From Haliea sp. (GTDB taxonomy: Bacteria; Pseudomonadota; Gammaproteobacteria; Pseudomonadales; Halieaceae): a stretch of 33,282 nucleotides of DNA. The notes under the pieces were generated by a model. That model was not told where the DNA came from and did not search any database. It worked only from the letters and a program-made list of their open reading frames with translations. The stretch is taken from positions 1 through 33,282 of the forward strand of contig JAACFI010000008.1 of assembly GCA_009937575.1 (NCBI GenBank). The letters run 5' to 3'. This document shows, in pieces, positions 9,337-30,304 of this stretch. Made by a program: the position numbers and the translations under genes. The first letter of the stretch is position 1. Every line of letters starts with the position of its first letter.

Positions 9337-10971
9337 ATGAATATACAGAACATTTCTTGCGGCCTGGCCGCCACGGCCACCCTGGCCCTGGCGCTGCCCG
9401 CGCTGGCTGCCGGGGTTCCCGTGAACCACTGGCTGGCCGACAGTGCCTATCCGGTGTCTCACCACAATGCGGGCCAAACGGACTCCACCCCGGTAGACGG
9501 TCCCGATGTGGGCAAGCGCCTGTCCGTGGATGAGGTCCAGTCTGTGCCTCTGCTTTGGTCCTCGGCGCCTACCTTCAAGAACGTCAACGGTGAGCGTATC
9601 GTTATTGCCTCCAATCCCGCGGGCATTATCAAGGTTAAGGCTACCGGCGAGGACTTCACCCTGGTCTCTAATGTGCCCTACCCGGGGCGTGAAGACGTCC
9701 ACGCGAAAATTACTGACGAAAAGCTGCGCGAGACCATGCGCAGCATCGACGAAAAACGCCGTGGCAAGCAGGATCTCAGGCTGCTTATTAATTCCCTGTG
9801 GATGTTTGTCAAATTCGAAATCAATTTCCGCACTTTCCCCTCCGGGGCTTATTCGGTGATCGATAGTGACGGCTATCACTACACCAATTTCGATCGTCAG
9901 TTTCTGGTGAAGTCTTTCGACGGCAACGACGCTGACGCGCCTCTCGTGCCAGTGAAGCACGTCAATATTGTTGACCAATTGCCACCCGAGGACGCGGAGG
10001 AGGTGAGTTACCTGCTGGGTATCACCATGACCTACGACGGTCATATCGTGGCGGCCGCAGGCGGCGCGGTGATCCTGGTGAATCGCCAGCTGGAGGTAGT
10101 GGATTACGCGATGTTTCCGGGTGAAAAGGTGGAAAACTCCATTGCTGTCGATGAGGACAACGGCATCTACGTGGTGACTTCGAAAAACATGCACAAGCTG
10201 GTTTGGACGGGCTCCAGTCTCTCCAGGGAGGCGGCCGATGGCGCATGGTCATCACCCTATGAGGTGATGGCGGAGGGGGAGGCCCTGAAGATGGGTGCCG
10301 CGTCCCACGGTTCAGGTACAACGCCTTCCCTGTTGGGCTTCGGTGCCGATGAGGACCGCTTGGTGGTCATTTCCGACGGCAGTCCGGATGGCGCAAACCT
10401 GGTGGCATTCTGGCGCGACGAGATCCCCGCAGACTTCAAGCAGAAGCCAGGGACGCTGTCTCGCCGTATCGCTGACCAGATTCCCATGGGCATCAGTGCC
10501 ACCACCATCGAGGCCTCGCCGGTGACCCATGACAACGGTGTGATGGTTATCAATACGACCTATCCGGAGCCGGGACCCATTCCCGGCGACCTGATCAGTA
10601 ATGCCTTCCTGGCGGGAACAACCCGTCCGGCGCCTCTGGGACTCAAGAAATTCGACTGGCTGCCGGATGAGGATCGCTTTGTGGAGGCCTGGGGCATGCC
10701 GGATATCGACAATACCGACTGGATGCCACCGGCCGTCTCCACCAGCAACGGCCTGGTGTACATTGCCAACCGTCGCAGCGATAACTATGAGTACCTGGCG
10801 GCGGACTGGGAGACAGGCGAGGTGAAGGCGGTGTGGCCATTCCCGGATGACAGTGTGCTTTACAACAACTGGGGCGGTATTACCGTATTCCTGGAAGATG
10901 GAGACCTGCTGCTGGGCGGTTTCTTCGCTATTAAACGATACGATATAGGTGGATTACGCAGTAGGGAGTAA
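9337..10971 (+). CDS. Secreted beta-propeller-like protein, paralogue of the 1-1604 lipoprotein
   Basis: This 544-residue protein starts with a Sec signal peptide: a hydrophobic core at about residues 8-24 and an A-L-A|A-type cleavage near residue 25, with no lipobox. The ATG at 9337 is preceded by AAGGA. It should be exported to the periplasm. The body shares spaced blocks with the partial lipoprotein at 1-1604: TYDGHIV, KNMHKLVW, ADGAW, SGTTPSLLGFG and FWRDEIP. These look like propeller blades or repeats. I do not recognise a characterised family and assign no activity; sensor, lactonase-like or binding roles are all possible. Its last 18 nt overlap the 3' end of TetR1, which is convergent. 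It follows the acyl-CoA dehydrogenase by 22 nt and probably shares its transcript. Confidence 0.9.
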   Translation: MNIQNISCGLAATATLALALPALAAGVPVNHWLADSAYPVSHHNAGQTDSTPVDGPDVGKRLSVDEVQSVPLLWSSAPTFKNVNGERIVIASNPAGIIKVKATGEDFTLVSNVPYPGREDVHAKITDEKLRETMRSIDEKRRGKQDLRLLINSLWMFVKFEINFRTFPSGAYSVIDSDGYHYTNFDRQFLVKSFDGNDADAPLVPVKHVNIVDQLPPEDAEEVSYLLGITMTYDGHIVAAAGGAVILVNRQLEVVDYAMFPGEKVENSIAVDEDNGIYVVTSKNMHKLVWTGSSLSREAADGAWSSPYEVMAEGEALKMGAASHGSGTTPSLLGFGADEDRLVVISDGSPDGANLVAFWRDEIPADFKQKPGTLSRRIADQIPMGISATTIEASPVTHDNGVMVINTTYPEPGPIPGDLISNAFLAGTTRPAPLGLKKFDWLPDEDRFVEAWGMPDIDNTDWMPPAVSTSNGLVYIANRRSDNYEYLAADWETGEVKAVWPFPDDSVLYNNWGGITVFLEDGDLLLGGFFAIKRYDIGGLRSRE

Positions 10972-11520
10972 TCTTGAAATAAGCCCAGCGGCCTCACAGT
11001 GCGCGCAGATGTCGTGTTCGTGCTCTATTACGGCGATTGCTGCTTCGGTGATTGCTGCCCGTGCAATCCGGTCACACATCTCAGTCTGCTCGTGACCTGC
11101 TGCTTGCAGTCCGGGGTCGTTTCTCGCCAGCGCGCCGGACCAGGGAAAGTGTTGTGAACTGGACCAGTGCGCCCTGCCGAGTATGTTGGGGCCATCCTCC
11201 AGAGTGATGCGGCGGAAAGCCTGGTCTTCGCACAATTTCAGGAACGCTTCCCATGCGAGGACAGATGACCCGGAATTCAGGGCCTCCAGCGCCTGAAGCT
11301 CCATCAACCCATGTACCGCGGTAAATAACCCGAGTTTGCTCCCGAAATGGTAGTAAATGGGCCTGATGGTCATGTCGCAGGACTCTGCGATCTCCTCCAG
11401 TGAAGTCGACGCATATCCCTGTTGCCCGAACAGGTGGCAGGCGGCGGCCAACAGCGTCTCGCGAGTTTCCTCCCGACGCTCGGCCTGGGTGCGTTTTCCA
11501 TCTTTTTTCCGCTCACTCAT
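10954..11520 (-). CDS. TetR-family regulator 1 (candidate regulon repressor)
   Basis: The protein has 188 residues. A basic N-terminal arm (KRTQAERR) leads into a TetR helix-turn-helix at about residues 39-60, with recognition segment TIRPIYYHFGSK. The C-terminal ligand-binding domain carries FRRITLEDGPNILGR, a block also found in TetR2 as FRRVVLIDGPNILGR. The ATG at 11520 has only a weak purine-rich site upstream. The gene is divergent from the WES/DGAT operon, and two operator copies lie in the gap, so it probably represses itself and that operon. The ligand-binding part departs from TetR2 after the shared block, and the inducer may therefore differ. Its 3' end overlaps the preceding convergent gene by 18 nt. 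Confidence 0.92.
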   Translation of the reverse strand: MSERKKDGKRTQAERREETRETLLAAACHLFGQQGYASTSLEEIAESCDMTIRPIYYHFGSKLGLFTAVHGLMELQALEALNSGSSVLAWEAFLKLCEDQAFRRITLEDGPNILGRAHWSSSQHFPWSGALARNDPGLQAAGHEQTEMCDRIARAAITEAAIAVIEHEHDICAHCEAAGLISRLLPTA

Positions 11521-11543: not shown

Positions 11544-11572
11544 TTGACATATGTAATTATGCTGCATATCAT
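11544..11572 (+). promoter_or_regulatory. Sigma70 promoter for the WES/acyl-CoA synthetase operon
   Basis: A perfect -35 TTGACA (11544-11549), a 17-nt spacer and -10 TATCAT (11567-11572) are seen. The first operator copy occupies the spacer. The expected start near 11579 gives a leader of about 66 nt before the TTG at 11645. Confidence 0.75.
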
Positions 11573-11591
11573 ATGTAATGTCACTACAAAA
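11549..11591. promoter_or_regulatory. Tandem operator pair B
   Basis: Copy one at 11549-11569 reads ATATGTA, 7 nt, TGCATAT. Copy two at 11571-11591 reads ATATGTA, 7 nt, TACAAAA. They are offset by 22 bp. The pair lies between divergent TetR1 and the WES/DGAT operon and overlaps both predicted promoters. Confidence 0.82.
11556..11584 (-). promoter_or_regulatory. Sigma70 promoter for TetR1
   Basis: On the minus strand, -35 GTGACA (11584-11579), a 17-nt spacer and -10 CATAAT (11561-11556) are seen, each box one base from consensus. It overlaps the opposing WES promoter and both operator copies. The leader to the ATG at 11520 would be about 29 nt. Confidence 0.6.
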
Positions 11592-11644
11592 TATGCAGCG
11601 GCCGGTAAATGGTTCCGGCCGGGTCAGCGACAGGAGGAGATACC

Positions 11645-13180
11645 TTGATCAAAGCACTGAGCCCCGCGGATGCGATTTTCTTCTTTACCGAGTCACCGAC
11701 GCAGCACCAGCACACCTTAGGCGTCATCGTGCTGGACCCCAGTACGGCACCCGGTGTGTGTGACGTCGGTACCCTGATTGACCTGTCGGAGAGCCTCGTG
11801 GACGAGGCGCCCGGCTATCGCCTGAAATTCGTCGATTCGCCGGCGACCATGGGCGTTCCCATGCTGGCGGAAGATCCGGATTTCAATATTCACAACCATA
11901 TACGCCATGTCGCCCTGCCGCAGCCCGGGGACATGGATCAGCTACAGGACCTGGTGGCGGATATTGCCAGCCGGCCCCTGAACCACGAGATTCCCCTGTG
12001 GGAAAACTGGTTCGTGTCCGGCCTGGAAGGTGGCTTGATCGCCATCGTCAGCAAGTCGCACCACAGCCTGTCGGACGGGGTGAACGGCGCCGAAACCATG
12101 GCAAAAATGTTCGACCTGGAGCCCGATCCGCCGAAGCGTGAAGAAAAAAAGGTGCAGAATAGTGTGAAGCACGCCAGGACGCCCTCGACCCTGGAAATCG
12201 TGCGCGAGGCTATCGAGGCGCGCCGCAAGAGCCCAAGTGCGGCTGAAATGGCCACCAAGGCGGTAAAGGGGTTGATGCGCCGCAGGGAGGTAAGCAACCA
12301 GTGTGATAACGCTGAACTGCTGCCGGGCAACACATTGAGGGCGCCGAAGGTTTTCTTCAATGGTCAAATCACGTCCCGGCGCAGTGTGGCCCTTGGGGCG
12401 CTGCCGCTGAATGATGTCAAGACAGTGAAGAACGCCTTCGGTGTGTCAGTGAACGACGCGATACTGGCAGTGGCAGCGATAGCGGTGAGGCGGTACCTGG
12501 AGCTGCATGATGATCTCCCCCAGGAAGCCCTGAGTTGCATGGTGCCTCTGAGTCTCGACCTGAATAAGGTGGGAGAAGGCGCAGACAATGGGGACGCCGC
12601 CAACCAGGTCCAGGTCATGAATGTAAAGTTCCCGGTCCAGATCGAAGACCCGGTAGAACTGATCGAGACATTGCACAAGTGTTCCAGCGCGGCGAAACAG
12701 CGCTTTAATGACACCTTCGACAATATGATGCTGACGGTAGTGGATACCCTTTCCCCCCACCTTGCGGGGCCGGCAATGTCCTTCATGACCGGGGATTTCT
12801 CTGCCCGTTTTCCAGCCAGCAACCTGGGGGTGTCCACCATTCCCGGACCGTCCTTCCCGCTCTATATGCGGGGTGCGAAAGTCGTGGGCAACTATCCCAT
12901 GGGGCCGATCCCCAACGGCATTGGCCTGGGTATTACCATGATGAGTTACATGGATGACCTGTATTTCACAGTGCAGGGTTGCCGGGAGAAGACCCCCGAT
13001 ATCGATCGACTGGCGGAATTTATGGACGAGGCCCTCCAGGTATTGCTGAAAGCGGCGCATCGTGTTGCCGCGCCTGAGAAAAAAGCGAAAAGACCCGCCC
13101 GCAAAATCTCGGCGAAACCCCGGGCGAAATCGAAAGCCAAAACCCGGGCCAAGACCCGCAAGACCGCCGCCAGGCGTTGA
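11645..13180 (+). CDS. Wax ester synthase/diacylglycerol acyltransferase (WES/DGAT) 1
   Basis: The protein has 511 residues. The family active site HHSLSDG (HHxxxDG) is at residues 139-145, preceded by the PLW motif (IPLWENW) and followed by the ND motif in SVNDAILAV. WES/DGAT enzymes transfer an acyl group from acyl-CoA to a fatty alcohol or diacylglycerol, and some accept other alcohols; they usually act at the inner membrane or on lipid droplets. The start is a TTG with a strong AGGAGGAG site 5-7 nt upstream; an ORF from 11609 would start before that site. The last roughly 35 residues form an unusual Lys/Arg/Ala-rich tail with AKxK-like repeats, absent from the two paralogues here. It is the first gene of a four-gene operon. 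Confidence 0.93.
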   Translation: MIKALSPADAIFFFTESPTQHQHTLGVIVLDPSTAPGVCDVGTLIDLSESLVDEAPGYRLKFVDSPATMGVPMLAEDPDFNIHNHIRHVALPQPGDMDQLQDLVADIASRPLNHEIPLWENWFVSGLEGGLIAIVSKSHHSLSDGVNGAETMAKMFDLEPDPPKREEKKVQNSVKHARTPSTLEIVREAIEARRKSPSAAEMATKAVKGLMRRREVSNQCDNAELLPGNTLRAPKVFFNGQITSRRSVALGALPLNDVKTVKNAFGVSVNDAILAVAAIAVRRYLELHDDLPQEALSCMVPLSLDLNKVGEGADNGDAANQVQVMNVKFPVQIEDPVELIETLHKCSSAAKQRFNDTFDNMMLTVVDTLSPHLAGPAMSFMTGDFSARFPASNLGVSTIPGPSFPLYMRGAKVVGNYPMGPIPNGIGLGITMMSYMDDLYFTVQGCREKTPDIDRLAEFMDEALQVLLKAAHRVAAPEKKAKRPARKISAKPRAKSKAKTRAKTRKTAARR

Positions 13181-17145: not shown

Positions 17146-17748
17146 TCAGCCGGAGTAGTCCCCGAGGCGGGCGAACATCGTCATGATGAGCTGTTCCGCC
17201 TCACGCTTCGCCATCGGTATATCATCCGCTTCCGCCACCATCAGGGCTGCCTCGGCCATGGCGCCCATCATCACCCGGTTCATCAGGGCAAAACGGAACT
17301 TTTTCGCTGCTCCCCGCGTTGGCTGGGTCGCTCCGACCAGCTCGCTGGCCCGCAGGTAGATCGTGCTCTGCGCCCACTGCTGCCGGCCAAGGATGTTGGG
17401 GCCGTCTATCAGGACGACCCGGCGGAATCCGGGATCGTCGCAGAGATCGAGGAAGGCGCGCCAGCTGACCCTTAGAGCTTTTTCCGGGTCTTCACCCATG
17501 TCTGAGACAAAGGTATCCAGAATGCGCGCACTCATATGTTCGTTGACGGCGGCAAACAGGGACTTCTTGTTTCCGAAGTAGTGGTACACTGGACGGATGG
17601 TGAGGCCGCAATCCGCTGAAATCTCCTCGAGGGAGGTATCCGCGTAGCCCTTCTCTCCGAAAAGGCGGCAGGCGCTGTCGAGCACTGCCTGCCTGGATTG
17701 TGCCCGCCTCTCGGCCTGTGTCCTTCGGGGTTTTTCAGTTTTCCCCAC
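17146..17748 (-). CDS. TetR-family regulator 2 (paralogue of TetR1)
   Basis: This 200-residue TetR protein has the arm RRTQAERR and a helix-turn-helix with the segment TIRPVYHYFGNK, nearly the same as TetR1. The shared block FRRVVLIDGPNILGR in the ligand domain also supports a duplication. The frame is open upstream to 17820, but that would put the first 24 residues across the operator and promoter. The GTG at 17748 has AGGAG 7 nt upstream and leaves a leader of about 37 nt, so I take it as the start. An operator copy spans the predicted transcription start, indicating autoregulation or cross-regulation by TetR1. It is convergent with the WES/synthetase operon, with 42 nt between the stops. 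Confidence 0.93.
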   Translation of the reverse strand: MGKTEKPRRTQAERRAQSRQAVLDSACRLFGEKGYADTSLEEISADCGLTIRPVYHYFGNKKSLFAAVNEHMSARILDTFVSDMGEDPEKALRVSWRAFLDLCDDPGFRRVVLIDGPNILGRQQWAQSTIYLRASELVGATQPTRGAAKKFRFALMNRVMMGAMAEAALMVAEADDIPMAKREAEQLIMTMFARLGDYSG

Positions 17749-17768
17749 AATGTTACTCCTGTACAAAC

Positions 17769-17789
17769 ATATGTAATAGCACTGCATAT
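17769..17789. promoter_or_regulatory. Operator C upstream of TetR2
   Basis: ATATGTA, 7 nt, TGCATAT matches the shared palindrome with complete arms. It lies 20 nt before the TetR2 GTG, over the expected transcription start rather than in the promoter spacer. A clear second copy is not seen, unlike at the other four sites. Confidence 0.78.
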
Positions 17790-17791
17790 TT

Positions 17792-17820
17792 AGCATATGC
17801 CCGACCAGGGCGTATGTCAA
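17792..17820 (-). promoter_or_regulatory. Sigma70 promoter for TetR2
   Basis: On the minus strand, a perfect -35 TTGACA (17820-17815), a 17-nt spacer and -10 TATGCT (17797-17792) are seen. The spacer is GC-rich and does not hold the operator, which lies just downstream. Confidence 0.6.
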
Positions 17821-17923: not shown

Positions 17924-19306
17924 TCAGCGCCTGGCCTGGCGACGGAGGTTGCTGGGCGTGAAGTACTCCGTCTTCTTCATTTCGCCGTCAACAATCGGCT
18001 GTGACGTGGTGTTGACGAGACGTGATGCCAGGTAGTGACCCGCCGGCAGGTCGAAGAAAAACTGGGTTCTGGCGAGATAGCCGTCAATCGCGTAGTGATA
18101 CACGATGTTCAACAGCCCCGTCCTGTATATTTCGCCACGATTATCGTAGCTGTCTATGGCGCTGATCAGCCAGGAATCTTCATCGATATAAAAGACCCGC
18201 TTGCCGTACAGGTGGCGTTCACCGGGCTTGAGGGTTGCCTCCACTACCCACACCCGGTGCAATTCGTAACGCATGTGGTCGGCGTTGGGATGCCCCGTTT
18301 GCAGCAGGTCGTCGAAAGCCAGTGACGTATCGTCGAAAGCGTAGCTGTTATAGGGGATGTAGAGTTCCCGCTTGCCCAGCAGTTTCCAATCATAGCGTTC
18401 AAATGCGCCATTGAAACCGTTGGTATCGTCAACGGTAACCAGGCCACCGGGACCGGTGGGCGTGTCGAAGCCCAGATTGGGTGCCTGCCGTACCCGCCGG
18501 GTGCCCGGTACGTAAGTCCAGGCCTTGCGCGCCTCACTGGTGTAATCGATGGGGTCGTGTACCAGGTTCATATTGCCTTTTTCCGCTGCAGGTACCGTAC
18601 GGTTGGCCATTGTCATAAACAGGGTGTTGCCGATTTCCGTCTCGGTTTTACCGACCGGGTTGCGCCGGTCCGCAAACAGGAAATTGGTCTGTATCGAGTT
18701 GCCGATCATATTCCGGGAACCATTAGCGAACACCGCAATTTCCCGGTATTCACCGTATTGGGTCGGGTTGGGGATACCGCCGGTCCGGGTATTCCACATG
18801 GCTTCGAACCCATCCCGGGGGATCGGGAAGGCCGTGCCCCCGGTCCAGTTCTGGATCGACTCGCCCTTGTTCGCCAACTCCGTGCGGGTGGCATTCCACT
18901 TCGCCCGGTCGATTTCGATCCGGGCGTAGGCGGCGTCGCGATGGGTCGGATAAATGTCCATGCGAAAGGTGTCAGGGCGCAGTTTGAACAATGCGAGTTG
19001 GCCCGCGGACAGCTTGTCCGCATATTGGTCGACATTTTCCGCGGTGATGCTGAACAGGGGTTTTTCTTCCGCATACGGATCGGGCAGGGCCGCGCCGTCG
19101 CCGCCGTAATTCAGGCCCTGGGGGGCGCCCTTCATGGAGCCGGTCCAGGCGGGAATGCTGCCTTCGGCATTGCCCGCGCGTTCCGCCCCCATTGGCGTAA
19201 GGTCCGCTCCCAGCCTGGCAGCTTCCTCTTCGGATACTTTGGCCTGGGCGCTGACTGCCATCAGCCCCGCCAGGGTAATTGCTCCAAACACTACAGTTCT
19301 TTTCAT
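17924..19306 (-). CDS. DUF1329 family exported protein
   Basis: The protein has 460 residues of the DUF1329 family. It has a Sec signal peptide ending at about residue 20 (AQA|K), followed by the conserved N-terminal region with GNAEGSIPAWTG. The family is predicted to be periplasmic or outer-membrane associated and is typically encoded with DUF1302, an MMPL/RND transporter and a YCF48-like protein, as here. Its biochemical role is unsettled; transport or folding of hydrophobic compounds at the outer membrane is the usual guess. The ATG at 19306 has GAGG 7 nt upstream; a TTG at 19312 is the only longer alternative. It lies 85 nt after DUF1302 and is the last gene of the operon. Confidence 0.94.
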   Translation of the reverse strand: MKRTVVFGAITLAGLMAVSAQAKVSEEEAARLGADLTPMGAERAGNAEGSIPAWTGSMKGAPQGLNYGGDGAALPDPYAEEKPLFSITAENVDQYADKLSAGQLALFKLRPDTFRMDIYPTHRDAAYARIEIDRAKWNATRTELANKGESIQNWTGGTAFPIPRDGFEAMWNTRTGGIPNPTQYGEYREIAVFANGSRNMIGNSIQTNFLFADRRNPVGKTETEIGNTLFMTMANRTVPAAEKGNMNLVHDPIDYTSEARKAWTYVPGTRRVRQAPNLGFDTPTGPGGLVTVDDTNGFNGAFERYDWKLLGKRELYIPYNSYAFDDTSLAFDDLLQTGHPNADHMRYELHRVWVVEATLKPGERHLYGKRVFYIDEDSWLISAIDSYDNRGEIYRTGLLNIVYHYAIDGYLARTQFFFDLPAGHYLASRLVNTTSQPIVDGEMKKTEYFTPSNLRRQARR

Positions 19307-19391
19307 ATTCAAGCCTCGTTTAACGATTTGGTGATTACAGTTTGTCTAGTCGGTTGCGTTGAAAATATCAGCCATTCAGGTTACGGCCCGG

Positions 19392-21077
19392 TCAGAAAGA
19401 GTAGGTGACCGAGAAGCTGATGTTGTCCCTGTCGTGGTTGCGATGTGTTTTCTTGGACCCCCAGAAAGTGGTGTACTTGAGGTCCGCCTTCCAGTTGTTG
19501 AGGTACTTGAATTTCGCACCGATGCTGGCGGACTTGGCGTCCTCCGTGAGAGACACTCCCTTCCAGGTGCCGTCGGCGGCGTGCTTGAAGGAGAAGGGAA
19601 TATCGATGTCCAGGCCCGATACAACGCTCCTGTAATTCAGGGCAGCGGTCACTGTATAACCCCAGGCGTCCCGGGTATTGATCATTGATACGCCTTCGGG
19701 GAGGTCCGAGGGCTTCCGGTTGGTGCGAATATAGACCGCTTCGCCGACCACCATCGCGCCATCAGCAAGGGGATTGGAGCCGAACAGGTAAGAGAATCCC
19801 ACGTTGCCCTGGGTCACCCGACCTGTCTTGAAGTCCGGCGTGACATAGCTTCCGGTGGCGCGGTCCAGGGTGGGTGCGGTCTGCTGTGTGGGCAGGGCGT
19901 CTTCATGATAGGAAATTTCGCCGTTGACCTGGAAATCTCCGACCATCGTGGTGAAACTGGCGCCCCACAGATCGATATCCTGCTGGTAATAATCCTGTAT
20001 GGCCTCCGGAAAGGCGGCGAGTTGGGGCAGAGCCGGTGACTCGTTGGTGATACTGCGTACCGACAGGAATTTGTCGTGGTAGCGGGTCCGGTAGAACCCG
20101 AGTTCGGTACCATCATCCATAAAATAGCGCAGCGCCAGGCCCCACTGGGCCTCTTCGCTGGAACCCTCCGGCTCGTCCTCGCCGATGACATCGAAGGGCA
20201 CGGCGATGGTCCCCAGGACAGGTACATCTTCCTGGACAATCAGGAACCGCTCGGCACCGTCTCCGGTTGTGTCGGCATTGCTCCAGTAGCTGCCCACGGC
20301 GGCCTGCTTGGTCTTTTTCCATTCGTACTGGTAGTAGGCCTCGACGCTGATTGAGGGGGTCACTTCGAAATTACCGTACAATTGGCCTATGGGCAGGAAT
20401 ATCTCCTTCAGTTCCGTGCCGGGCGCCTGCGCCACCGAGGCATCCACGTGGGTCTGGGTTCCACTGATTCCGGGAAAGAACTGTGATTCACCCCAACTGA
20501 TGACCTGCCGGCCCAGGCGGGCCGAGAGTAGCCTGTCTCCCAGGAGGAAATCCCCGTAGAAGAACGCATCCAGGAAAAATGCGTCCTTGCCGTGTGTATC
20601 CTTCGTATCCGGGTGGAAGTCCTCCTGCGCCACGTCACCCACGGAGCCGCCCACGGGAATGCCGAAAATATCCGTGGTCCAGTCTCCGTTGCCGTCACCG
20701 GAATTATCGGTGAAGTAGGTCCTGTTGTTCTGGTCAGTGTTCTGCTCTTCGTAACGGTAGTCATACAGTGCCTTGCCGCGCACGAAGAAGCCGTAATTGC
20801 CCCATTGGAAATCCGCTTCGGATACTACGGAAACCTTGTTCGACACGACGCCCGTGTCGAAGTTATTGGTGCCGTCATCGGTGTTGGCATTTACCGGATC
20901 GGGAGATTGCACGCGGTGCATCAGGCCGTAGCTGACACTCGAATCCCAGTCTATCCTCGCTCCCGGTTTCTCGAATTCGAATTCGAGTGCCTGGGTGCTC
21001 AGGCTGGTTGAGAGGAGTGCTGTGGCGACGCCCAGTGCAATACGGCTCTGGTTGAATCTGCTGTGAGGTTTCTGCAT
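19392..21077 (-). CDS. DUF1302 family outer-membrane protein
   Basis: The 561-residue protein has a signal peptide with cleavage near residue 29 (TQA|LEF) and a mature part of alternating amphipathic strands with many Tyr, Trp and Gly residues. It ends in SFSVTYSF. A terminal Phe after alternating hydrophobic residues is the usual outer-membrane insertion signal of beta-barrels. DUF1302 proteins are porin-like barrels found beside DUF1329. A channel for hydrophobic substrates is inferred from context. I choose the ATG at 21077, with AAGG about 8 nt upstream; the frame is open to a TTG at 21116, which would put a basic extension before a normal signal peptide. The gap to the MMPL gene is 72 nt. 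Confidence 0.93.
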   Translation of the reverse strand: MQKPHSRFNQSRIALGVATALLSTSLSTQALEFEFEKPGARIDWDSSVSYGLMHRVQSPDPVNANTDDGTNNFDTGVVSNKVSVVSEADFQWGNYGFFVRGKALYDYRYEEQNTDQNNRTYFTDNSGDGNGDWTTDIFGIPVGGSVGDVAQEDFHPDTKDTHGKDAFFLDAFFYGDFLLGDRLLSARLGRQVISWGESQFFPGISGTQTHVDASVAQAPGTELKEIFLPIGQLYGNFEVTPSISVEAYYQYEWKKTKQAAVGSYWSNADTTGDGAERFLIVQEDVPVLGTIAVPFDVIGEDEPEGSSEEAQWGLALRYFMDDGTELGFYRTRYHDKFLSVRSITNESPALPQLAAFPEAIQDYYQQDIDLWGASFTTMVGDFQVNGEISYHEDALPTQQTAPTLDRATGSYVTPDFKTGRVTQGNVGFSYLFGSNPLADGAMVVGEAVYIRTNRKPSDLPEGVSMINTRDAWGYTVTAALNYRSVVSGLDIDIPFSFKHAADGTWKGVSLTEDAKSASIGAKFKYLNNWKADLKYTTFWGSKKTHRNHDRDNISFSVTYSF

Positions 21078-21149
21078 TTTTCTTGCCTTGGTCTTAATCA
21101 ATAATCGGGGTTTCAATTGCTGTATCTGGTTTCTGTCTACCTGACCCGG

Positions 21150-23543
21150 TCAGGCTGCCTGTGCCACGGTCTGGGTAACCTTGTCAGTCTTGGCTTTCGA
21201 CCTGATCAGGAAATGCGACAGGGCGGGTAGCAGCCACAGGGCGCATAGCATGTTGACCAGGAACATGAAGGCCAGAAGCAGGCCCATGTCCGCCTGGAAC
21301 TTGATGGGTGACAGGACCCAGGTGCAGACGCCGATGGCCAGTGTGATACCGGTAAATGCGACTGCTTTGCCGGTTGCCTCGAGCGCGCGCCGATAGGCCT
21401 CCTGGGTGCTGACCCCTTCACGCACGTGCATGATCAGGTTGCTGAATATGTAGAACCCGTAGTCGACCCCCACCCCAACACCGAGCGCGACGACAGGCAG
21501 GGTCGCCACCTTGATGCCGATACCCAGGTGGGCCATCAGCGCCTGGCACAGGGCAGAGGTGAGCCCCAGCGGTATGACGATACACAGGATGGCGGTGACC
21601 GAGCGGAAGGTGAGACCGACCACCAGGATAACCACCGCGTAGACGTATACCAGAATCTTGGCCTGGGCGTCCTCGATCACCTGGTTGGTGGCGGCCTCGA
21701 TGCCCCCGTTTCCTGCTGCCAGGCGGAAGTGAATCTCGTGGCTGTCGTATTGGCCTGCGAATTCCTCGATAGCCGCTACTACACGCTCCAGGGTTTCCGC
21801 CTTGTGATCATCGAGGAACGCGACCACCGGTGCGAGGCTGCAGTCGCGGTTGGCGAGAACGGGTGGCAGGGCCCTTCTGGTATTGTTCAGGATCTGCTGG
21901 TTGTTGGATATATCCATCCATTTCAGGCTGCCCTCGTTCTGCGCCATGATGACGCGCTTGGCAATGGCCGAGAGGGAGGAAACAGACTGGACGCCGGGCA
22001 CGTTCTCCAGCATCCACGTGAAGCGATCGATCAACTCCACGTTGTCGTAAAGCAGGCATTCGCCATCGCCGGTTTCGACCAGGGTAATCAGCGTGTCGGT
22101 ACTGACTGTGAACTTGTCAGTGATATACAGCACATCCAGGTTGTAAGTGGAATCCGGGTGAAGTTCCGGCGCTCCGGGGTCGAGGTCACCGATTTTCAGG
22201 TTACCGGAACCCATGTAGCCCAGGGTGAACAGAGCGGCGGCAACCACAACCGAGACGGTCGCTACTTTCGGGTGCGCACTGTAGCTGAGCACGCGCCAGA
22301 TTTTTGAGCCACCGTATTCGTAGTCGTCATCCCGATGGCGGGCGGGTTTCATGCCCGTATAGGACAGCAATACCGGCAGGAGGACCAGGTTGGTCAGCAC
22401 GATGACAGCCACTCCGATGCCTGCCGCTGTGCCCAGGTCCCTGATAACCTCGATTTCGATAACCATCAGGGTGATGAAGCCAAAGGCGTCGGTGATAAGG
22501 GCAGTGACGCCGACGATGTACAGGGAACGGAAGGCCAGCCTTGCCGCCTTGAGTTTTGAATATCCATGGGACAGCTGGTTTGCCATCGCATTGACCATCT
22601 GCACGCCGTGGCTGACGCCGATGGCCAGTACCAGGAACGGAACAAGAATTGAGTAGGCGTTGAGGCCGTAGCCGAAAACCGTCAGCAGGCCCAGTTGCCA
22701 GACGACCGCGATCATGGAGCACAGCAGTGGGGCCACTGCGCCGCGTGGGCAGCGGCAGTATAACAACAACAGCAGGAAGGTAATTGCGATCGTGATAAGC
22801 GCGAATACCAGGATCGCGCCTATGCCCTCGAGCATTTCGCCGACCACCTTGCCGAATCCGATGATATGAATTCTTACATTCTCGTTCTCGTACTTCTGCC
22901 GTATCTCCTTTTCCAGTTTGCGTGAAAATTCCAGGTAGTTCATCGGTTCGCCGGTGGTGGGATCGCGGTCGACCAGGGACACCTGCACCATGGCTGCGCT
23001 GAAGTCATTGGATACCAGGCGGCCTACCTGTCCGGAACGCAGGATGTTGTTCTTCAGGGTTTCCAGGGTTGCCTCAGTACCGTTGTAGCCGGAGATAACC
23101 TGTCCCCCCTCGAAGCCCTTGGGAGTAACCTGCATCCATCTCACGCTGGGCGCCCAGATACTCTTGAGGCTGTTGCGGTTTACTCCCGGGAAATAGAATA
23201 TTTCGTCGTTGACCTGGCGCAGGGTTTCCAGGAAATCGACGGTGAGGATGTCGCCGTTTACCGCCTCTACCGCTATCTGTATGCTGCTGCCGCTGGCACC
23301 GAGGTCGGCGCGGTGCTCTTTCATCGACACGATAAACGGGTGATCAGCGGGTATCATTTTTTCAAAGCTGGCGTCGGGGCTGAGATTTGTCATCTGGTAG
23401 CCAAGGTAGGCAGTCACTGCAAGAAACAGCAGGATGACGATTCCTCTGTTCCTGAATATCAGGCGCTCGAGAAATCGCTCTTCCTGTTCCAGAGCGTAAT
23501 CGGTGACAACGCTTTCAGTGGTGGCATTCTGGTTATCGGACAT
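21150..23543 (-). CDS. MMPL/RND superfamily transporter
   Basis: This 797-residue inner-membrane protein has the two-half RND layout. A first membrane segment lies at about residues 33-52, then a large periplasmic loop, then a cluster of five helices from about residue 235 to 395 that includes GVSHGVQMVNAMA. A second lone helix, a second periplasmic loop, and a last cluster from about residue 640 to 785 with LGVGVGVDYGFYIFS follow. These proteins use the proton gradient to move lipids, hopanoids or other hydrophobic molecules out of or within the envelope. With no membrane-fusion or TolC-type partner nearby, and with DUF1302/DUF1329 beside it, an HpnN/MMPL-like lipid trafficking role is more likely than drug efflux. 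Transport direction is unknown. It starts 33 nt after the YCF48-like gene. Confidence 0.94.
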   Translation of the reverse strand: MSDNQNATTESVVTDYALEQEERFLERLIFRNRGIVILLFLAVTAYLGYQMTNLSPDASFEKMIPADHPFIVSMKEHRADLGASGSSIQIAVEAVNGDILTVDFLETLRQVNDEIFYFPGVNRNSLKSIWAPSVRWMQVTPKGFEGGQVISGYNGTEATLETLKNNILRSGQVGRLVSNDFSAAMVQVSLVDRDPTTGEPMNYLEFSRKLEKEIRQKYENENVRIHIIGFGKVVGEMLEGIGAILVFALITIAITFLLLLLYCRCPRGAVAPLLCSMIAVVWQLGLLTVFGYGLNAYSILVPFLVLAIGVSHGVQMVNAMANQLSHGYSKLKAARLAFRSLYIVGVTALITDAFGFITLMVIEIEVIRDLGTAAGIGVAVIVLTNLVLLPVLLSYTGMKPARHRDDDYEYGGSKIWRVLSYSAHPKVATVSVVVAAALFTLGYMGSGNLKIGDLDPGAPELHPDSTYNLDVLYITDKFTVSTDTLITLVETGDGECLLYDNVELIDRFTWMLENVPGVQSVSSLSAIAKRVIMAQNEGSLKWMDISNNQQILNNTRRALPPVLANRDCSLAPVVAFLDDHKAETLERVVAAIEEFAGQYDSHEIHFRLAAGNGGIEAATNQVIEDAQAKILVYVYAVVILVVGLTFRSVTAILCIVIPLGLTSALCQALMAHLGIGIKVATLPVVALGVGVGVDYGFYIFSNLIMHVREGVSTQEAYRRALEATGKAVAFTGITLAIGVCTWVLSPIKFQADMGLLLAFMFLVNMLCALWLLPALSHFLIRSKAKTDKVTQTVAQAA

Positions 23544-23576
23544 CAGCCGGCTCCAATGAATTACTTATAGTTCGGT

Positions 23577-24740
23577 TCAGTTCAGGTTTATCAGGCGCGC
23601 GCCGCCAAGCCCGACCGCAATGAAATTGTCGGATTCCAGGTGCAGCAGGGTACTGTGATTCATGCGGTTAGCCTGGGTCCGGGCCTGTATCGCCCCATCG
23701 GCGCTGTCGATCAGGAGAATTACGCCCGCCGGCCCGGCCAACGCGGTCCGGCCATCGGAGGTGACTGTCGCGCCCGCAAAGGTCGCCTCTATTGGGCTTT
23801 CGATCGAAGTCCAGGTGTCGCCGAGGTCTTGTGACTGGAACAGCGCGCTGCCGATGCCGTAGGCCGTTATCACCTGGTTGGTCTCGTCGTAGACGATGCC
23901 GAAAAACGTGTCAGGGTATCCGGATTCCAGTTGCTCCCAACTCTCGCCCTTGTCCAGTGACCGGAAAAGGATGCCCCCTTCACCCGCCAGGAAGACTTCC
24001 CCACGGCTTGATCCGGTAACCCCGTTGAGGTGGAAACCTTCAGGGGTCAGCACCAGGTGGGCCTTGTTCTCCCATGTCTTGCCGCCATCGCGGGTCTCCA
24101 CCAGGCGACCGAAGGCACCGACCGCCCAGCCGTTATCGCTGTCCATAAACCACACATCGTGCAGGTTGGTGGGAATCGTCGGTTCTTCCACCAGTATTTG
24201 CGCATCCTCAAAGGCAAACAGGGCATCCTCCAGTTCCAGGTCACGGTCCGGGTCCGGGTTGGCCTCCAACTCCGCTGACAGCGCCTCGTAAGCCGCCTCC
24301 GTGCTTACCAGGTTCTCTTGATTGGCCTGCTGCTGGAATTTCGTGCCATCCAGCTGGCGTATCCAGGTCTCGCCGCCATCGGTCGTATGAAAGACCATGC
24401 TCTGGTGGCCCACGGCCCAACCGAATTTGTCGTCCACGAAAGAAACCCCGGTGAGCATGCGGGTGAATGGCATTTTCCCCTGGTGCCAGTGAGTACCCTC
24501 ATCGTCCGAATAAAGCACGTGGCCCCTTTCGCCCACCGCGACAAGGCGGGAACCCGCCCTGTCAATGTCGACCAGGGTCGAGGTCGAAGCCCTGGGGGCG
24601 ATCGTGGCGTATTCGACGACATCACTGGAATCGGCCGTTGCGCTCACGGCACAGATTCCGGTCAAAAGGGGCAGGGCTAGAAGCGCGCAAAACCGTGCTA
24701 TTCGCGTAGCGGTCACTTCAGAAACAGAGGCGTAGGTCAC
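23577..24740 (-). CDS. YCF48-like/BNR-repeat exported protein
   Basis: The 387-residue protein has an N-terminal signal peptide (hydrophobic core about residues 17-33) and five Asp-box-type turns: DDEGTHW, TDGGETW, RDGGKTW, LDKGESW and QDLGDTW. They mark the blades of a YCF48/BNR-type beta-propeller. An acidic insert of about 60 residues lies between the second and third box. In photosynthetic organisms the related YCF48 (Hcf136) helps assemble photosystem II. In non-photosynthetic proteobacteria these proteins accompany MMPL/DUF1302/DUF1329 genes and probably act as periplasmic accessory factors. The GTG at 24740 has AGGA 6 nt upstream and a predicted leader of about 26 nt. It is the first gene of the operon behind operator pair E. 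Confidence 0.92.
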   Translation of the reverse strand: MTYASVSEVTATRIARFCALLALPLLTGICAVSATADSSDVVEYATIAPRASTSTLVDIDRAGSRLVAVGERGHVLYSDDEGTHWHQGKMPFTRMLTGVSFVDDKFGWAVGHQSMVFHTTDGGETWIRQLDGTKFQQQANQENLVSTEAAYEALSAELEANPDPDRDLELEDALFAFEDAQILVEEPTIPTNLHDVWFMDSDNGWAVGAFGRLVETRDGGKTWENKAHLVLTPEGFHLNGVTGSSRGEVFLAGEGGILFRSLDKGESWEQLESGYPDTFFGIVYDETNQVITAYGIGSALFQSQDLGDTWTSIESPIEATFAGATVTSDGRTALAGPAGVILLIDSADGAIQARTQANRMNHSTLLHLESDNFIAVGLGGARLINLN

Positions 24741-24753
24741 AGGAATTCCTAAG

Positions 24754-24796
24754 ATATGTAGTAACGATACAAATGATATGCAGTTACATTACATAA
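24754..24796. promoter_or_regulatory. Tandem operator pair E
   Basis: Copy one at 24754-24774 reads ATATGTA, 7 nt, TACAAAT. Copy two at 24776-24796 reads ATATGCA, 7 nt, TACATAA. They are offset by 22 bp, as at the other tandem sites. They lie directly before the YCF48-like gene and overlap its promoter. Confidence 0.8.
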
Positions 24797-25237: not shown

Positions 25238-26632
25238 TCACACCTGCGCCGCTGCCTGCTGTAATTCTTCCAGCGCGACCGGTATGGCTGCGGTCAGCAT
25301 TTCGAGGTCAGGCATGGCCCTGTGGCAGGCCAGGGCACTCACGTTCAACTGATCTATGTAGCTCCACACGGTGATGTTGAGGCCCATGCCCTCGCCGAGA
25401 ACGCCCGCCGAGTAGAGGGCCTCCAGCGTGCCGTCATCGCTCTCCAATTTCTCCCGTGGCCCCGGGACGTTGGAAATGGCGATATTGGAATTGGGTCGGA
25501 AGTCGGGATCATTCGCCGGTTTCAGGCGGAACTTGCGCTGACATGACCAGGTCATCAGATTCGGAGGTACGTATTGCATCAGGTCGCCCCACTGGTGCTT
25601 GCCAAATATTGCCAGGTCGGCCTTGCCCTGTTCTGTGTCCTTGCGGATCGCGTAGGTTCGCTCGATTGGGTCCGCAATTTCCGTGTGCAACAGGGTAAAG
25701 AGGGTTGTTACGTTATTCCCCATGCGCCTGACCACGCCGGGGTCGTCTGCGCCAACGGGAACGGATACCGCCAGGGGCCCATCGGGCAGTTCATCGTGGG
25801 CCAGAAAGTAGTGCCGCAGTGCTCCTGCCATGACGGCGAGCACGACATCGTTCAATGTAACGCCGAGCCTGTTTTTCAGGTTCCTGACATCTTCCAGTGA
25901 AAGCTGGCAGGTGGAAAACCCTCGTCTTACACCCAGGGCGTAATTGAATCGGGTGCGCGGAAATTCCGCGGTAAGAGGATTGACCCGGGGCTCCGTTTCG
26001 GTGCGGGAGCGCTTGTAAAGCTCCCACAGGTTGCCGGTGAACGATTTGAGAATGGGCCAAAGGTGCCAGATATCGTATTTGAGGTGGGATACCAGGGCGT
26101 CCCACAGCAGGCGCCGGTTACTCGGAAGGGGCAGGGCGTTCGGGGCAGTTGTGCCCGTGTCCGTAACCTCTGACCATCCCTGGGTGAGGAATCCAAGGTA
26201 GGCCAGGCCGTCCGCCATGGCGTGGTGAATCTTGTGCACTGCCGCCACACGATCCCCCTCCAGACCCTCCACTATCCAGATCTCCCACAGGGGGCGCGAA
26301 CGGTCCAGTTGGGTGCTGCCGATCTGGGCGACGAGATCATCCAGTTGTTGCATCGATCCCGGGGAGGGCAGCGCCACATGGAAAATATGGCCGTCGATGT
26401 CGAAATCCGGGTCATCCACCAACACGGGGTGGTGGATGCCCAGGGGTACCGTGACGACCCGTTGGCGGACAATGGGGTTGGCATTGAGCTGCTGTTTCAA
26501 GCGTCCGTAGAGATAATCATAGCCCTTCGAACTGTCCGCCTTGCTCAGTATCAGGACTTTCAGGGTATGCATCAGTGACGTCGGGGTTTCCCGGTACAAA
26601 AAGATCGCGTCACTTCCATTCAGTCGTTGCAT
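25238..26632 (-). CDS. Wax ester synthase/diacylglycerol acyltransferase (WES/DGAT) 3
   Basis: The protein has 464 residues, with HHAMADG (HHxxxDG) at residues 136-142, the PLW motif at 114-116 and the ND motif in TLNDVVLAV. The motif positions match those of WES/DGAT 2, and both proteins end in a similar block with GLNITVWSY, so the two are close paralogues. The ATG at 26632 has AGGA 6 nt upstream and gives the shared N-terminus; an ATG two codons earlier lies against that site. It would use acyl-CoA to make wax esters, triacylglycerol or other esters. No copy of the shared operator is found before it, so it is probably outside the TetR1/TetR2 regulon. It is divergent from the serine hydrolase gene. 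Confidence 0.94.
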   Translation of the reverse strand: MQRLNGSDAIFLYRETPTSLMHTLKVLILSKADSSKGYDYLYGRLKQQLNANPIVRQRVVTVPLGIHHPVLVDDPDFDIDGHIFHVALPSPGSMQQLDDLVAQIGSTQLDRSRPLWEIWIVEGLEGDRVAAVHKIHHAMADGLAYLGFLTQGWSEVTDTGTTAPNALPLPSNRRLLWDALVSHLKYDIWHLWPILKSFTGNLWELYKRSRTETEPRVNPLTAEFPRTRFNYALGVRRGFSTCQLSLEDVRNLKNRLGVTLNDVVLAVMAGALRHYFLAHDELPDGPLAVSVPVGADDPGVVRRMGNNVTTLFTLLHTEIADPIERTYAIRKDTEQGKADLAIFGKHQWGDLMQYVPPNLMTWSCQRKFRLKPANDPDFRPNSNIAISNVPGPREKLESDDGTLEALYSAGVLGEGMGLNITVWSYIDQLNVSALACHRAMPDLEMLTAAIPVALEELQQAAAQV

Positions 26633-26761
26633 GTCCATTCCTGCACAATCATTGGCCAGGGTTGGCCGCGGTATTATTTTTCAGTATAGGAGAGGGAATA
26701 ACGCCCTCCCATTGCCGATCGGGCCAGATAATACTTGCCAGTTTATGTGTTGCGGCGGACG

Positions 26762-27958
26762 ATGCCTGAGTCCCAGCAACTGAAATGTCCCATGACGTCA
26801 ATAGATCAAAGTGACCTCTCCCCCGCCAATCGCGGGCTCGATCGCGAGCTTGTCGACGATCTCAGGGGGCGCGTAACGTATGCGATAGAAAAGGGGCCGC
26901 TGCGGTCAATACAGATTGCTGTTGCACGTGATGGGCAGCTCGCCCTTTTTGAGACATTTGGTGAAGCTGATAACGAGACCCGTTTCAATATCTATTCCTG
27001 TACCAAGCCCATCGTGGCCTCGGCTATCTGGAAACTTATGGGGCAGGGGGCGATCGAGGTCGACAGGCTCGTCAGCGATTACTTCCCGGAGTTTGCCGGT
27101 CAGGGAAAGGAGCGGGTCACGGTCGAGCAGGTCATGTGCCACACCGCCGGTTTCGCGCAGGCTCCGATGGGGCCGCCACAATGGTGGCGGCGTGATGACC
27201 GCATCGAACAGATGCGCAGGTGGCACCTGGATTGGGAGCCGGGCAGTCAGTATACCTACCACCCTACCTCTGCTCACTGGGTACTGGCAGAGTTGATCGA
27301 GCGTTGCAGTGCTTGTGATTACCGGCAATACATTAATAAACACATCCTCGACCCGTTGGGGCTCAAAGCGCTGCGCCTGGGTGTATCGCCCAAGGAGCAG
27401 GACGATATTGCCACGCTGGAACATGTGGGGGAGTCCCCCACGTCGGAGGAACTGGCGCAGGTGTTTGGCAGTACCGTGAATTGGCCTGATATGGTCGATG
27501 ACTCCCTGCTGATGTTTAACGATCCACAGGTGCGCGCCCTGGGTGTTCCCGGCGGGGGAGCGGTGTCCACTGCTGCCGACCTGGCCATGTTTTACCAGGC
27601 GCTGATACACAACCGGGAAGGCCTGTGGCAGCGAGATCTGCTGGCCGATGCAACCGGTCGCGTCCGGGTGGATTTCCCGGACCCAATGACCGGCGTACCG
27701 GCAAACAGGGGATTGGGTGTGGTGATCGCCGGCAGCGGTCCGAAGGCGCGCTATCGCGGGATGGGGCAATCGGTCTCTGCCGGGGCCTTCGGACACCAGG
27801 GTGTCGGTGGCCAGGTAGCCTGGGGTGACCCCGGGACGGGTCTCTCTTTCTGCCTCCTGACCAACGGGCTGGATATCAATCCCATCCGCTCCGCCCGTTT
27901 CAGCGCCGGGGTGAATAACCGCGCCGGTGCGTGCGCCCGGGTAGGCGAGGGGGAGTAG
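26762..27958 (+). CDS. Serine hydrolase, class C beta-lactamase family
   Basis: The protein has about 398 residues of the beta-lactamase-related serine hydrolase family. The nucleophile motif S-C-T-K has Ser79/Lys82. The second motif has Tyr166 (Y-H-P, in place of the usual Y-x-N), and an H-Q-G motif near the C-terminus stands in for the KTG-type triad. Enzymes of this group are esterases, lactonases, transesterases or peptidases more often than true beta-lactamases. No signal peptide is visible, which favours a cytoplasmic esterase. The start is uncertain: ATG at 26762 or 26792, or TTG at 26735, none with a good ribosome-binding site. Its 3' end lies 9 nt from the convergent 758-residue fusion gene. 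Confidence 0.9.
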   Translation: MPESQQLKCPMTSIDQSDLSPANRGLDRELVDDLRGRVTYAIEKGPLRSIQIAVARDGQLALFETFGEADNETRFNIYSCTKPIVASAIWKLMGQGAIEVDRLVSDYFPEFAGQGKERVTVEQVMCHTAGFAQAPMGPPQWWRRDDRIEQMRRWHLDWEPGSQYTYHPTSAHWVLAELIERCSACDYRQYINKHILDPLGLKALRLGVSPKEQDDIATLEHVGESPTSEELAQVFGSTVNWPDMVDDSLLMFNDPQVRALGVPGGGAVSTAADLAMFYQALIHNREGLWQRDLLADATGRVRVDFPDPMTGVPANRGLGVVIAGSGPKARYRGMGQSVSAGAFGHQGVGGQVAWGDPGTGLSFCLLTNGLDINPIRSARFSAGVNNRAGACARVGEGE

Positions 27959-27967
27959 CGCGGCACT

Positions 27968-30244
27968 CTACGCCGCTGCGCGCTTTCTTTGCTTACTTGT
28001 CTTCCCGCCGTGGGAGGCCATCCAGCGCCCCACACTGTCCAGGGAGTGGACCTGCCCCCTCCTTATTGCGTTGTACACTGTTTCGTTGACGAAACGGGTC
28101 ATGGCGGCCGTCACTTGCCGCGCCATGCTGTTGCCTTCGCCGGAGGTGGCCATGATCAACAGGTGTGGATTGAGAGGATCCATGGCCAGTTCCTCTCGTT
28201 GGCGCTTCAGCAGTACGAAACGCGCCGGCACTTCCAGATCCTGTTCCCGTGGGACGTTTTCTTTGGCCAGCCGCGTACGCAGAAGATAGTTGTGCTCCTG
28301 CCGGTGCCGGGTGGCGGATACCAGGAAATCGTCCTCGTGGATCAGGGTCATCGAGGGAATATCGTAGGCCAACAAAACATCCAGTGATTTCAGATGCCGC
28401 CGTTGGTACTCCACCGGGTCGTGCATCGACGCGTTGATTTCTTTTACCAGGCCGTAAAAAGACGCCACCCGAAGCAGTCGGCCGTTGACCAGGCGCAGGA
28501 TGTAGGGATTATCCGAGTTGAGCATACGCTGTTGCACCTTGCGGTTATTCAACAGGCGACGGATCCACTGGTTAAGCCCACCAATTAAAGGGCGTGCAAA
28601 CCAACGTGTGAGGAAACGGTCCAGCCCGGTCATGCTGCGTGCACCATGCTCCAGGTCAATGTCATCGACCACACGCAATGTATTGTCCGTTTCCTTTTGA
28701 TAGACGCGTGGGAACCCGGAAAAGTCCAGGGGGGTGTTGTGGCGGTAATGCGAGATGACAGCTCTGACGTTTTCGCCCGTATTCAGTCCATCGGAGGGTG
28801 CCCAGGTGGCGAGATTGATCATGCCGCTGGCTCTCAGTGCGTCAACGAGTTGCCTGTTTTGTGGGGTGAGATCCTCATAGGTACGTATGGGGGCATCATA
28901 GTCATCCAGCAGGGACAGCAGCAGATGATCGGAGATTACGCCGCCGATGGAATGGCTGGTTACCGGTGTGGGTCGGCCCTGGCGCCAGTTCTTCAGAATG
29001 GCTTTGCGCAGCGCACGGGCGTAGTGGGGAAATATCTCGTCACTCTCCAGGTTCTTGGCATGACCGCCGCGATGCATGGCCGAAACCGTCCAGGAACTGG
29101 GCAGGCGGATCAGCAGGTTGGTGAAGCTGAACAGGCCCATGAACCCGTGCATCAACAGGGCGTGAACGCCATTCAATTCATCTCCCGCCCGGGTCTCGGC
29201 CTTGTTACGTATGGTCTCGCCCTTCTCTCTGTATTCGAATACCGTTTCGTCGAAGTGCAGGGATTGCTCGTCCGCAAAGATGTACACCTTCTCGGCAATC
29301 TCCGGCGTCTCCCGCAGCATACGCAGAGGAGTCTCCATGACGGTCTGCTCAAAGTCAGCCGATTCTTCCATTTCAAACCGGCCCAGCGCCTTCAGTTTCA
29401 GACTGCCGGACACAATCAGTGAAACGCGTTCGGCATTCGTCAGCACACCCCGATTGAGCGCCACGCGGATTGCACCGGATTCCTGACGCAGCACGGCCAC
29501 GCCGGACGGCCTTGCCGTCAGCTCGGGCGTGTAGGGTGTAAATGCGCCCAGGGTGCCGTCCTTGCCGATCCCGCTGACCACCAGGTGGAAAGACATGGAG
29601 CCTCCGAGCCTCGCTTGAATGTCCTGTTGATAGCGTTTGCTTTCCGCGCGGGCCAGCTGCAGTGCGCGGGCATGCTGGTGGCGATCCAGCGCCTGTTTCA
29701 CTCCCGCCAGATTCAACGGGTGTACCATCCTGGCAATCATTTCTTCGATGATATCGTCCAGGGAAGCGGATAGTGCCAGGCTCAATGCGCGCGCCACAAC
29801 GTTCTTACCCTTTTGACGGATCAGCACGCCGGCCAGGGGGGCGATAAAGTTTACGACCAGGGAGTTTTCCGCGCTCTCCCAGCCCGGTTCACCGGAAGAT
29901 TCCTCCAGAAGAAAGAATCGAGTGTGGCGAATCCAGTCAATGTCGCTGTGGTGATCTGTGAGCCAGGCGCGGTAGACGCTCTTGATGGTATTGCCGCCGC
30001 CGACGGCAACGGTGAAGTAGTGGCGCTTATACTGGCCCCAGGCTGCCTGGCGATCCCTTTGCAGCCAGCGCTTGTACTGGGAGCGCATGACTTCGGCGCA
30101 GTGTCTGGCGGCGCTGTCTAGATTCCCCGATATGGCCACGTGGATGCCGGACTCTTCCTGGATGAGTTCGGGAGCCTGGGCCTTGCGTCGGCGGGAATTT
30201 CCGAGCGGACTGGCCGGGAATGCCCGACTCAGGCGGTCGCCCAT
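27968..30244 (-). CDS. Fusion protein: 6-phosphogluconolactonase-like domain plus alpha/beta hydrolase
   Basis: This 758-residue protein appears to join two enzymes. Residues 75-285 resemble the 6-phosphogluconolactonase/glucosamine-6-phosphate isomerase fold: VAVGGGNT (79-86) for the phosphate loop, WIRHTRFFLLEES where the family has its DER motif, and GIGKDGTLGAF (225-235) where the family has GxDGHTASLF. The catalytic His of that motif is replaced by Thr, and DER reads EES. Residues 355 onward look like an alpha/beta hydrolase, with HGFMG (366-370) and the elbow S-H-S-I-G, nucleophile Ser432. The tail is basic. There is no signal peptide. The ATG at 30244 has GGGAG about 8 nt upstream. It stands behind operator pair F, so it probably belongs to the regulon. 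Its reaction is unknown, and I know of no described protein with this layout. Confidence 0.88.
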   Translation of the reverse strand: MGDRLSRAFPASPLGNSRRRKAQAPELIQEESGIHVAISGNLDSAARHCAEVMRSQYKRWLQRDRQAAWGQYKRHYFTVAVGGGNTIKSVYRAWLTDHHSDIDWIRHTRFFLLEESSGEPGWESAENSLVVNFIAPLAGVLIRQKGKNVVARALSLALSASLDDIIEEMIARMVHPLNLAGVKQALDRHQHARALQLARAESKRYQQDIQARLGGSMSFHLVVSGIGKDGTLGAFTPYTPELTARPSGVAVLRQESGAIRVALNRGVLTNAERVSLIVSGSLKLKALGRFEMEESADFEQTVMETPLRMLRETPEIAEKVYIFADEQSLHFDETVFEYREKGETIRNKAETRAGDELNGVHALLMHGFMGLFSFTNLLIRLPSSWTVSAMHRGGHAKNLESDEIFPHYARALRKAILKNWRQGRPTPVTSHSIGGVISDHLLLSLLDDYDAPIRTYEDLTPQNRQLVDALRASGMINLATWAPSDGLNTGENVRAVISHYRHNTPLDFSGFPRVYQKETDNTLRVVDDIDLEHGARSMTGLDRFLTRWFARPLIGGLNQWIRRLLNNRKVQQRMLNSDNPYILRLVNGRLLRVASFYGLVKEINASMHDPVEYQRRHLKSLDVLLAYDIPSMTLIHEDDFLVSATRHRQEHNYLLRTRLAKENVPREQDLEVPARFVLLKRQREELAMDPLNPHLLIMATSGEGNSMARQVTAAMTRFVNETVYNAIRRGQVHSLDSVGRWMASHGGKTSKQRKRAAA

Positions 30245-30260: not shown

Positions 30261-30304
30261 TTGTGCAGTGATGATACATAATATTATGTAGCAAGACTGC
30301 ATAT
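30261..30304. promoter_or_regulatory. Tandem operator pair F
   Basis: The strong copy at 30284-30304 reads TTATGTA, 7 nt, TGCATAT. A weaker copy at 30261-30281 reads TTGTGCA, 7 nt, TACATAA, offset by 23 bp. The facing arms of the two copies form a perfect 16-bp palindrome at 30275-30290. Confidence 0.75.

Follow-up and report, generated by a model that had tools for sequence, protein, structure and literature searches.

A single open reading frame in a 33,282-nucleotide stretch of Haliea sp. DNA, the whole of which we call the window, encodes a 758-residue protein that, judging from structure models, almost certainly joins a 6-phosphogluconolactonase (6PGL)/NagB fold to an alpha/beta hydrolase fold (Table 1). 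This fusion is a new domain architecture and also defines an unnamed hydrolase family, both built from known folds. The two folds are common, and in the open-access literature searched we found neither a description of their pairing in one chain nor an account of the layout as a characterised family.

Table 1. Positions in the window of the fusion gene, its domains and motifs, the paired operators and the neighbouring genes.
Feature	Position	Strand	Basis or remark
6PGL-like domain/alpha-beta hydrolase fusion protein, 758 aa	27968..30244	(-)	ATG start, stop included
6PGL/NagB-fold domain, residues ~31-333	29246..30154	(-)	AlphaFold2 model and fold search, PF01182
Alpha/beta hydrolase domain, residues ~334-735	28040..29245	(-)	models and fold search
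Invariant anion-binding loop GGGNTxK, residues 82-88	29981..30001	(-)	alignment, 26/26
E114-E115-S116 where D-E-R is expected	29897..29905	(-)	alignment
GIGKDGT, residues 225-231, where GxGxDGH is expected; catalytic His lost	29552..29572	(-)	alignment
Near-invariant GRFEMExxxxFExTVxETPxRxLR, residues 288-311, domain boundary	29312..29383	(-)	conservation
Nucleophile elbow, residues 430-435; S432 the proposed nucleophile	28940..28957	(-)	alignment and model
D639, proposed catalytic acid, after strand 631-636	28328..28330	(-)	26/26
H694, proposed catalytic histidine, after strand 674-679	28163..28165	(-)	26/26
Paired operator, fusion gene/divergent DUF1214 gene	30264..30301		two 15-bp sites, 23 bp start to start
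Paired operator upstream of AmeCDAB-like operon	24757..24793		22 bp start to start
Paired operator, TetR gene/wax-ester/TAG synthase gene	11552..11588		one perfect site, one with mismatch
TetR regulator (TetR_N + TetR_C_41)	10954..11520	(-)	candidate for shared operator
Wax ester synthase/DGAT behind operator	11609..13180	(+)	
DUF1329 periplasmic protein, AmeB-like	17924..19312	(-)	
DUF1302 outer-membrane protein, AmeA-like	19392..21116	(-)	
MMPL/HAE3 RND transporter, AmeD-like	21150..23543	(-)	
YCF48/BNR protein, AmeC-like	23577..24740	(-)	
Second wax ester synthase/DGAT, downstream of fusion, same strand	25238..26638	(-)	
Beta-lactamase-fold serine hydrolase, convergent neighbour	26735..27958	(+)	nearest NCBIfam is lipase LipE, below cut-off

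In a Pfam scan, PF01182 was the one family whose cut-off the protein exceeded (54.1 bits, E 2.6e-14, cut-off 27), and its score against the 6PGL equivalog model TIGR01198 (42.7 bits) falls far below the cut-off of 124.45. An AlphaFold2 model built from a 17-sequence input (mean pLDDT 81.7) was then used for fold searches, in which the N-terminal half gave a Z-score of 24.5 to the 6PGLs 3ico_A and 2j0e_A (rmsd 3.3 over 236 residues), and residues ~327-722 of the full model matched alpha/beta hydrolases, with 8ooh_B at Z 20.4 (rmsd 3.2 over 256 residues). In the model, a long helical insert, or lid, lies at residues ~480-626 within the hydrolase domain. A separate model of the C-terminal half, built from 26 sequences, gave hydrolase matches once more (Z 19.6), with 8ooh, bromoperoxidase, monoacylglycerol lipase and aryl esterase among those of Z 18-20. 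Since adjacent rows of the fold search are tied and Pfam abhydrolase models give no match in 17 members at E <= 5, the hydrolase subfamily cannot be named. The initial annotation had assigned these two folds from the letters alone, with the NagB/6PGL fold placed at residues 75-285; the model and fold searches bear this out, residues ~31-333 being predicted to adopt it.

The same annotation had proposed surveying the fusion across its family. The survey gathered 26 distinct full-length members from Halieaceae and one sister family, all with the identical architecture, and this shared layout rules out a frame or assembly artefact or the chance adjacency of two ORFs. Within the family, 23 of the 140 genomes searched carry the fusion. 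Across 293 genomes sampled from the order, the sole holder outside the family is a sister-family genome (G264), and a class-wide genome sample yielded, outside the family, short PF01182-type matches and nothing longer. PF01182 is matched by all 17 members tested, and contig C105 of the window's genome holds another copy with 63% identity. Searches of plasmids and phages gave no match and those of viral contigs no relative, which rules out a mobile or phage origin. The fusion family is long established in Halieaceae. A canonical 6PGL with the motifs SGGSTPK, DERW and GMGGDGHTASWFP is encoded elsewhere in the same genome, at C445, so that the fusion, with its low TIGR01198 score, is not the housekeeping enzyme. 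In a separate, 99%-complete relative (G032, locus L110), the fusion alone matched PF01182 and no canonical 6PGL was found.

The N-terminal half had been described as keeping the glycine-rich loop and GxGKDG framework of 6PGLs, with Thr in place of the catalytic His and EES in place of DER, and each point holds for the window's protein. In the loop that begins G82-G83-G84-N85-T86, residues G82-G84, N85, T86 and K88 are invariant across the 26 aligned members (the genome's canonical enzyme has SGGSTPK here), as is K283, the Lys of the G..K motif; we take the loop and K283 to have the phosphate-binding role that they have generally in the NagB/6PGL fold. Position 231, at the end of G225-IGKDG-T231, is His in none of the members (T12, G6, A4, S2, D1, Q1), and position 229, the Asp two residues before it, is also relaxed (D15, N8, E1, T1, K1), with the flanking G225, G227, G230 and G233 invariant. 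Column entropy accordingly reaches 2.06 bits at 231, the freest position in the motif, versus zero at G82-T86, K88 and K283. Where DER is expected, E114 is kept in 25 of 26 members and residue 116 is always Ser or Thr and never Arg (position sets E/Q114, E/D/A115 and S/T116), giving the family forms GGGNTxK, mostly E-(E/D)-(S/T), and GxG(K/R)xGx. R109 is invariant or nearly so across the members, and the near-invariant stretch at the domain boundary is poorly modelled over residues 288-304 (pLDDT < 50). Mean column entropy is similar in the N-terminal half (1.32) and the hydrolase (1.19), and because the former is conserved about as strongly as the latter, it has been retained for a function. 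We read the alignment as suggesting that the anion grip of the pocket is under selection and the old 6PGL chemistry is not.

In the C-terminal half, the S-H-S-I-G elbow that had been reported as intact is present as S430-H431-S432-I433-G434 and follows strand 428-431 of the model, with H431, S432 and G435 invariant in all 26 members and the residue preceding the elbow His variable (G/C/F/S/H). The HG pair of the oxyanion region (366-367), also invariant in 26/26, stands at the end of model strand 361-366, and D638, which adjoins the proposed catalytic acid, is kept in 25 of 26. In the model, HG, S432, D639 and H694 fall at strand ends in the usual alpha/beta hydrolase order, and a hydrolase triad S432-D639-H694 thus appears to be intact. 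A loss of the hydrolase His (EGN follows PHLLIM where GGH often stands) was considered and dropped, as the last strand of the model (674-679) precedes H694. A search with the hydrolase half alone, covering 369 genomes at class level and 349 at phylum level, turned up no relative beyond the fusion family at E <= 0.01, and a PDB sequence search gave no match better than E 1.3; these searches rule out stand-alone hydrolase relatives at the levels covered.

The initial annotation had placed the fusion gene behind a shared operator, and this operator proved to be real. The window holds five matches to TGYAGNNANNNTRCA, against 0.09 expected, paired at three promoters; as the motif was derived from the sites at 24757-24793 and 30264-30301, the matches there are not independent, and the fifth match (11574-11588), together with its imperfect partner, supplies an independent confirmation. 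At the fusion gene, the two copies are separated by an 8-bp gap in a 38-bp palindromic region (30264-30301) ~20 bp upstream of the start codon. A whole-genome scan for pairs with a 7-bp gap and <= 3 mismatches, a pattern outside which this 8-bp-gap pair falls, found 24757-24793 and 11552-11588 alone, both in the window, and the reversed-motif control gave zero matches. The adjoining TetR protein (10954-11520) is likely the regulator of the operator, and the three paired sites probably constitute a local TetR regulon that takes in the fusion, the AmeABCD-like exporter and wax-ester synthesis. The relatives' fusion loci examined lack the exact motif, and co-regulation is therefore shown for the window's genome only. 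A second TetR_C_41 gene is found at 17146-17820.

The exporter genes occupy 17924-24740, where YCF48-type, HAE3 RND, DUF1302 and DUF1329 proteins are encoded consecutively on one strand, the composition of an AmeABCD-type cassette. According to the available part of the report on Castellaniella defragrans, AmeABCD (DUF1302, DUF1329, COG4447 and HAE3 RND) protects against monoterpenes, and the neighbours of the fusion resemble this monoterpene exporter; that part mentions no 6PGL/hydrolase fusion (PMC6394551).

The genomic setting of the fusion varies among its relatives. An iron-containing alcohol dehydrogenase (Fe-ADH) and a DUF6524 gene follow it in 14 of 26 cases, and DUF6524 without Fe-ADH in three more (17/26 with DUF6524). 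At L012:10244-11905 and the equivalent loci, the Fe-ADH/DUF6524 pair is succeeded by an opposite-strand polysaccharide/nucleotide-sugar gene cluster. The three genomes G030, G658 and G659, which belong to a single other genus, differ: there AmeC-D-A-B-like genes come directly after the fusion on its own strand, and in G030 the ORFs overlap. In the tree, the window copy lies beside Fe-ADH-linked copies and far from those of the three genomes, a separation that requires the shift to the Ame setting to have happened twice or more. The window's genome has 15 DUF1329 matches versus 4-8 in five relatives, and this frequency weakens the Ame linkage of the window copy when taken alone; nevertheless, given the operon-like arrangement in the clade and a second, operator-shared association, chance is not easily the cause. 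Furthermore, an AMP-dependent ligase gene lies upstream of two other members and an enoyl-CoA hydratase-family gene after one. The common theme of these neighbours points to acyl/hydrophobe metabolism, not sugar metabolism.

We favour, at about an even chance, the reading of the protein as a serine hydrolase to which a non-catalytic module of 6PGL type is attached as a ligand binder. The hydrolase half would use S432-D639-H694 to cleave the ester or thioester formed by a hydrophobic acyl or alcohol compound, presumably in the cytoplasm, and the 6PGL-type half would no longer perform 6PGL chemistry, retaining instead a phosphate/anion pocket formed by the GGGNTxK loop and K283. This half would most likely bind a phosphorylated or otherwise anionic ligand, and may thereby gate the hydrolase as a sensor or hold the substrate head group. 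A TetR-type repressor would probably co-control the fusion with wax-ester/TAG synthesis and the AmeABCD-like hydrophobe exporter. We also put forward, as a tentative possibility, an allosterically gated lipid esterase, in which the catalytically dead domain senses the level of a sugar-phosphate, or else of a nucleotide/CoA-like phosphate, and switches the hydrolase. Two points weigh against the favoured reading: Ame-linked and Fe-ADH-linked copies may have different jobs, and the conserved stretch at residues 288-304 is modelled with low confidence.

The initial annotation had left the choice between a ligand sensor and a new lactonase. On alignment evidence, the loss and variability of the His and Asp beside an invariant anion loop and Lys make a sensor the likelier of the two, and the lactonase survives in the broader proposal that the N-terminal half still works as an enzyme whose chemistry has changed. 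It would then use E114/E115 as a lactonase or isomerase for another compound, in a two-step protein of which one half opens a ring or isomerises and the other cuts the ester. The retention of E114 in 25 of 26 members, at the acidic position of DER/MDEY and in place of the DER Asp, counts against our favoured reading and, together with the invariant set R109, R265, R289, E291, E299, E304, R308 and R311, for other catalysis in this half; we nonetheless consider such an enzyme unlikely, given that the old catalytic positions are unconstrained (six residue types at 231 and five at 229) and that no sugar lactone suggests itself among the lipid-related neighbours. The loss of catalytic residues would equally suit an N-terminal half that is purely structural, serving without a ligand in dimerisation or in docking to a membrane or partner, but the strict invariance of GGGNTxK and K283, at the anion-binding positions of the fold, is not readily explained in that way, and we judge this no more probable than changed chemistry.

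Degeneration of the hydrolase half as well, leaving the whole protein as a sensor or scaffold for lipid metabolism, would fit with the want of sequence relatives beyond the fusion family in the searches run, the 0/17 members with a Pfam abhydrolase match and the variable residue before the elbow His. We regard it as very improbable, since S432, D639, H694 and the oxyanion HG are invariant in 26/26 and, in the model, come after strands 428-431, 631-636 and 674-679, as the order of the fold requires.

The fusion was compared with the closest known systems. It shares with 6PGL (Pgl/DevB; PF01182, TIGR01198) the fold, the glycine-rich loop, the GxGx(D/N)G frame, the G..K motif and the terminal D..A element, but differs in lacking the catalytic His, in having E(E/D)(S/T) for DER, in a longer helical insert and in the attached hydrolase. 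With glucosamine-6-phosphate deaminase (NagB) it has in common the fold (Z ~22) and an acidic residue at the MDEY position, whereas the His of GxGxDGH is missing and its sequence is nearer to 6PGL. Alpha/beta hydrolases such as monoacylglycerol lipase, aryl esterase and haloalkane dehalogenase-like proteins resemble the fusion in their fold (Z 18-20), in the order Ser-Asp-His and in the HG motif; the fusion, in contrast, has no detectable sequence relative and carries a long helical insert and the N-terminal 6PGL domain. In DeoR/SorC-type domains, a NagB-like fold acts as a non-catalytic sugar-phosphate sensor that controls DNA binding, whereas the partner here is a hydrolase. In the G6PD-6PGL fusions (Plasmodium GluPho, animal H6PD), the 6PGL is active and its partner is G6PD.

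If the sensor reading is correct, a 6PGL domain long kept after the loss of its His would represent a metabolic enzyme turned sensor within the same chain as its effector, and a gated esterase would link central sugar metabolism with the way in which marine Halieaceae turn over the wax-ester-like lipids that they store or export. The hydrolase half, with no sequence relatives in Pfam, PDB or genome searches, adds an unnamed family tied to hydrophobe-export and wax-ester genes. The presence of two copies in one genome and a clear three-promoter operator makes these proposals directly testable.

Elsewhere in the window, a DUF3604 protein (744 aa) is encoded at 3788-6022, with genes for an FMN oxidoreductase and a glyoxalase-like protein close by; it does not belong to the genes linked by the operator. 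A 544-residue protein without a Pfam or NCBIfam match is encoded at 9337-10971 and has an N-terminal signal-like segment; a related ORF of ~534 residues (3-1604, (-) strand) lies at the left edge of the window.
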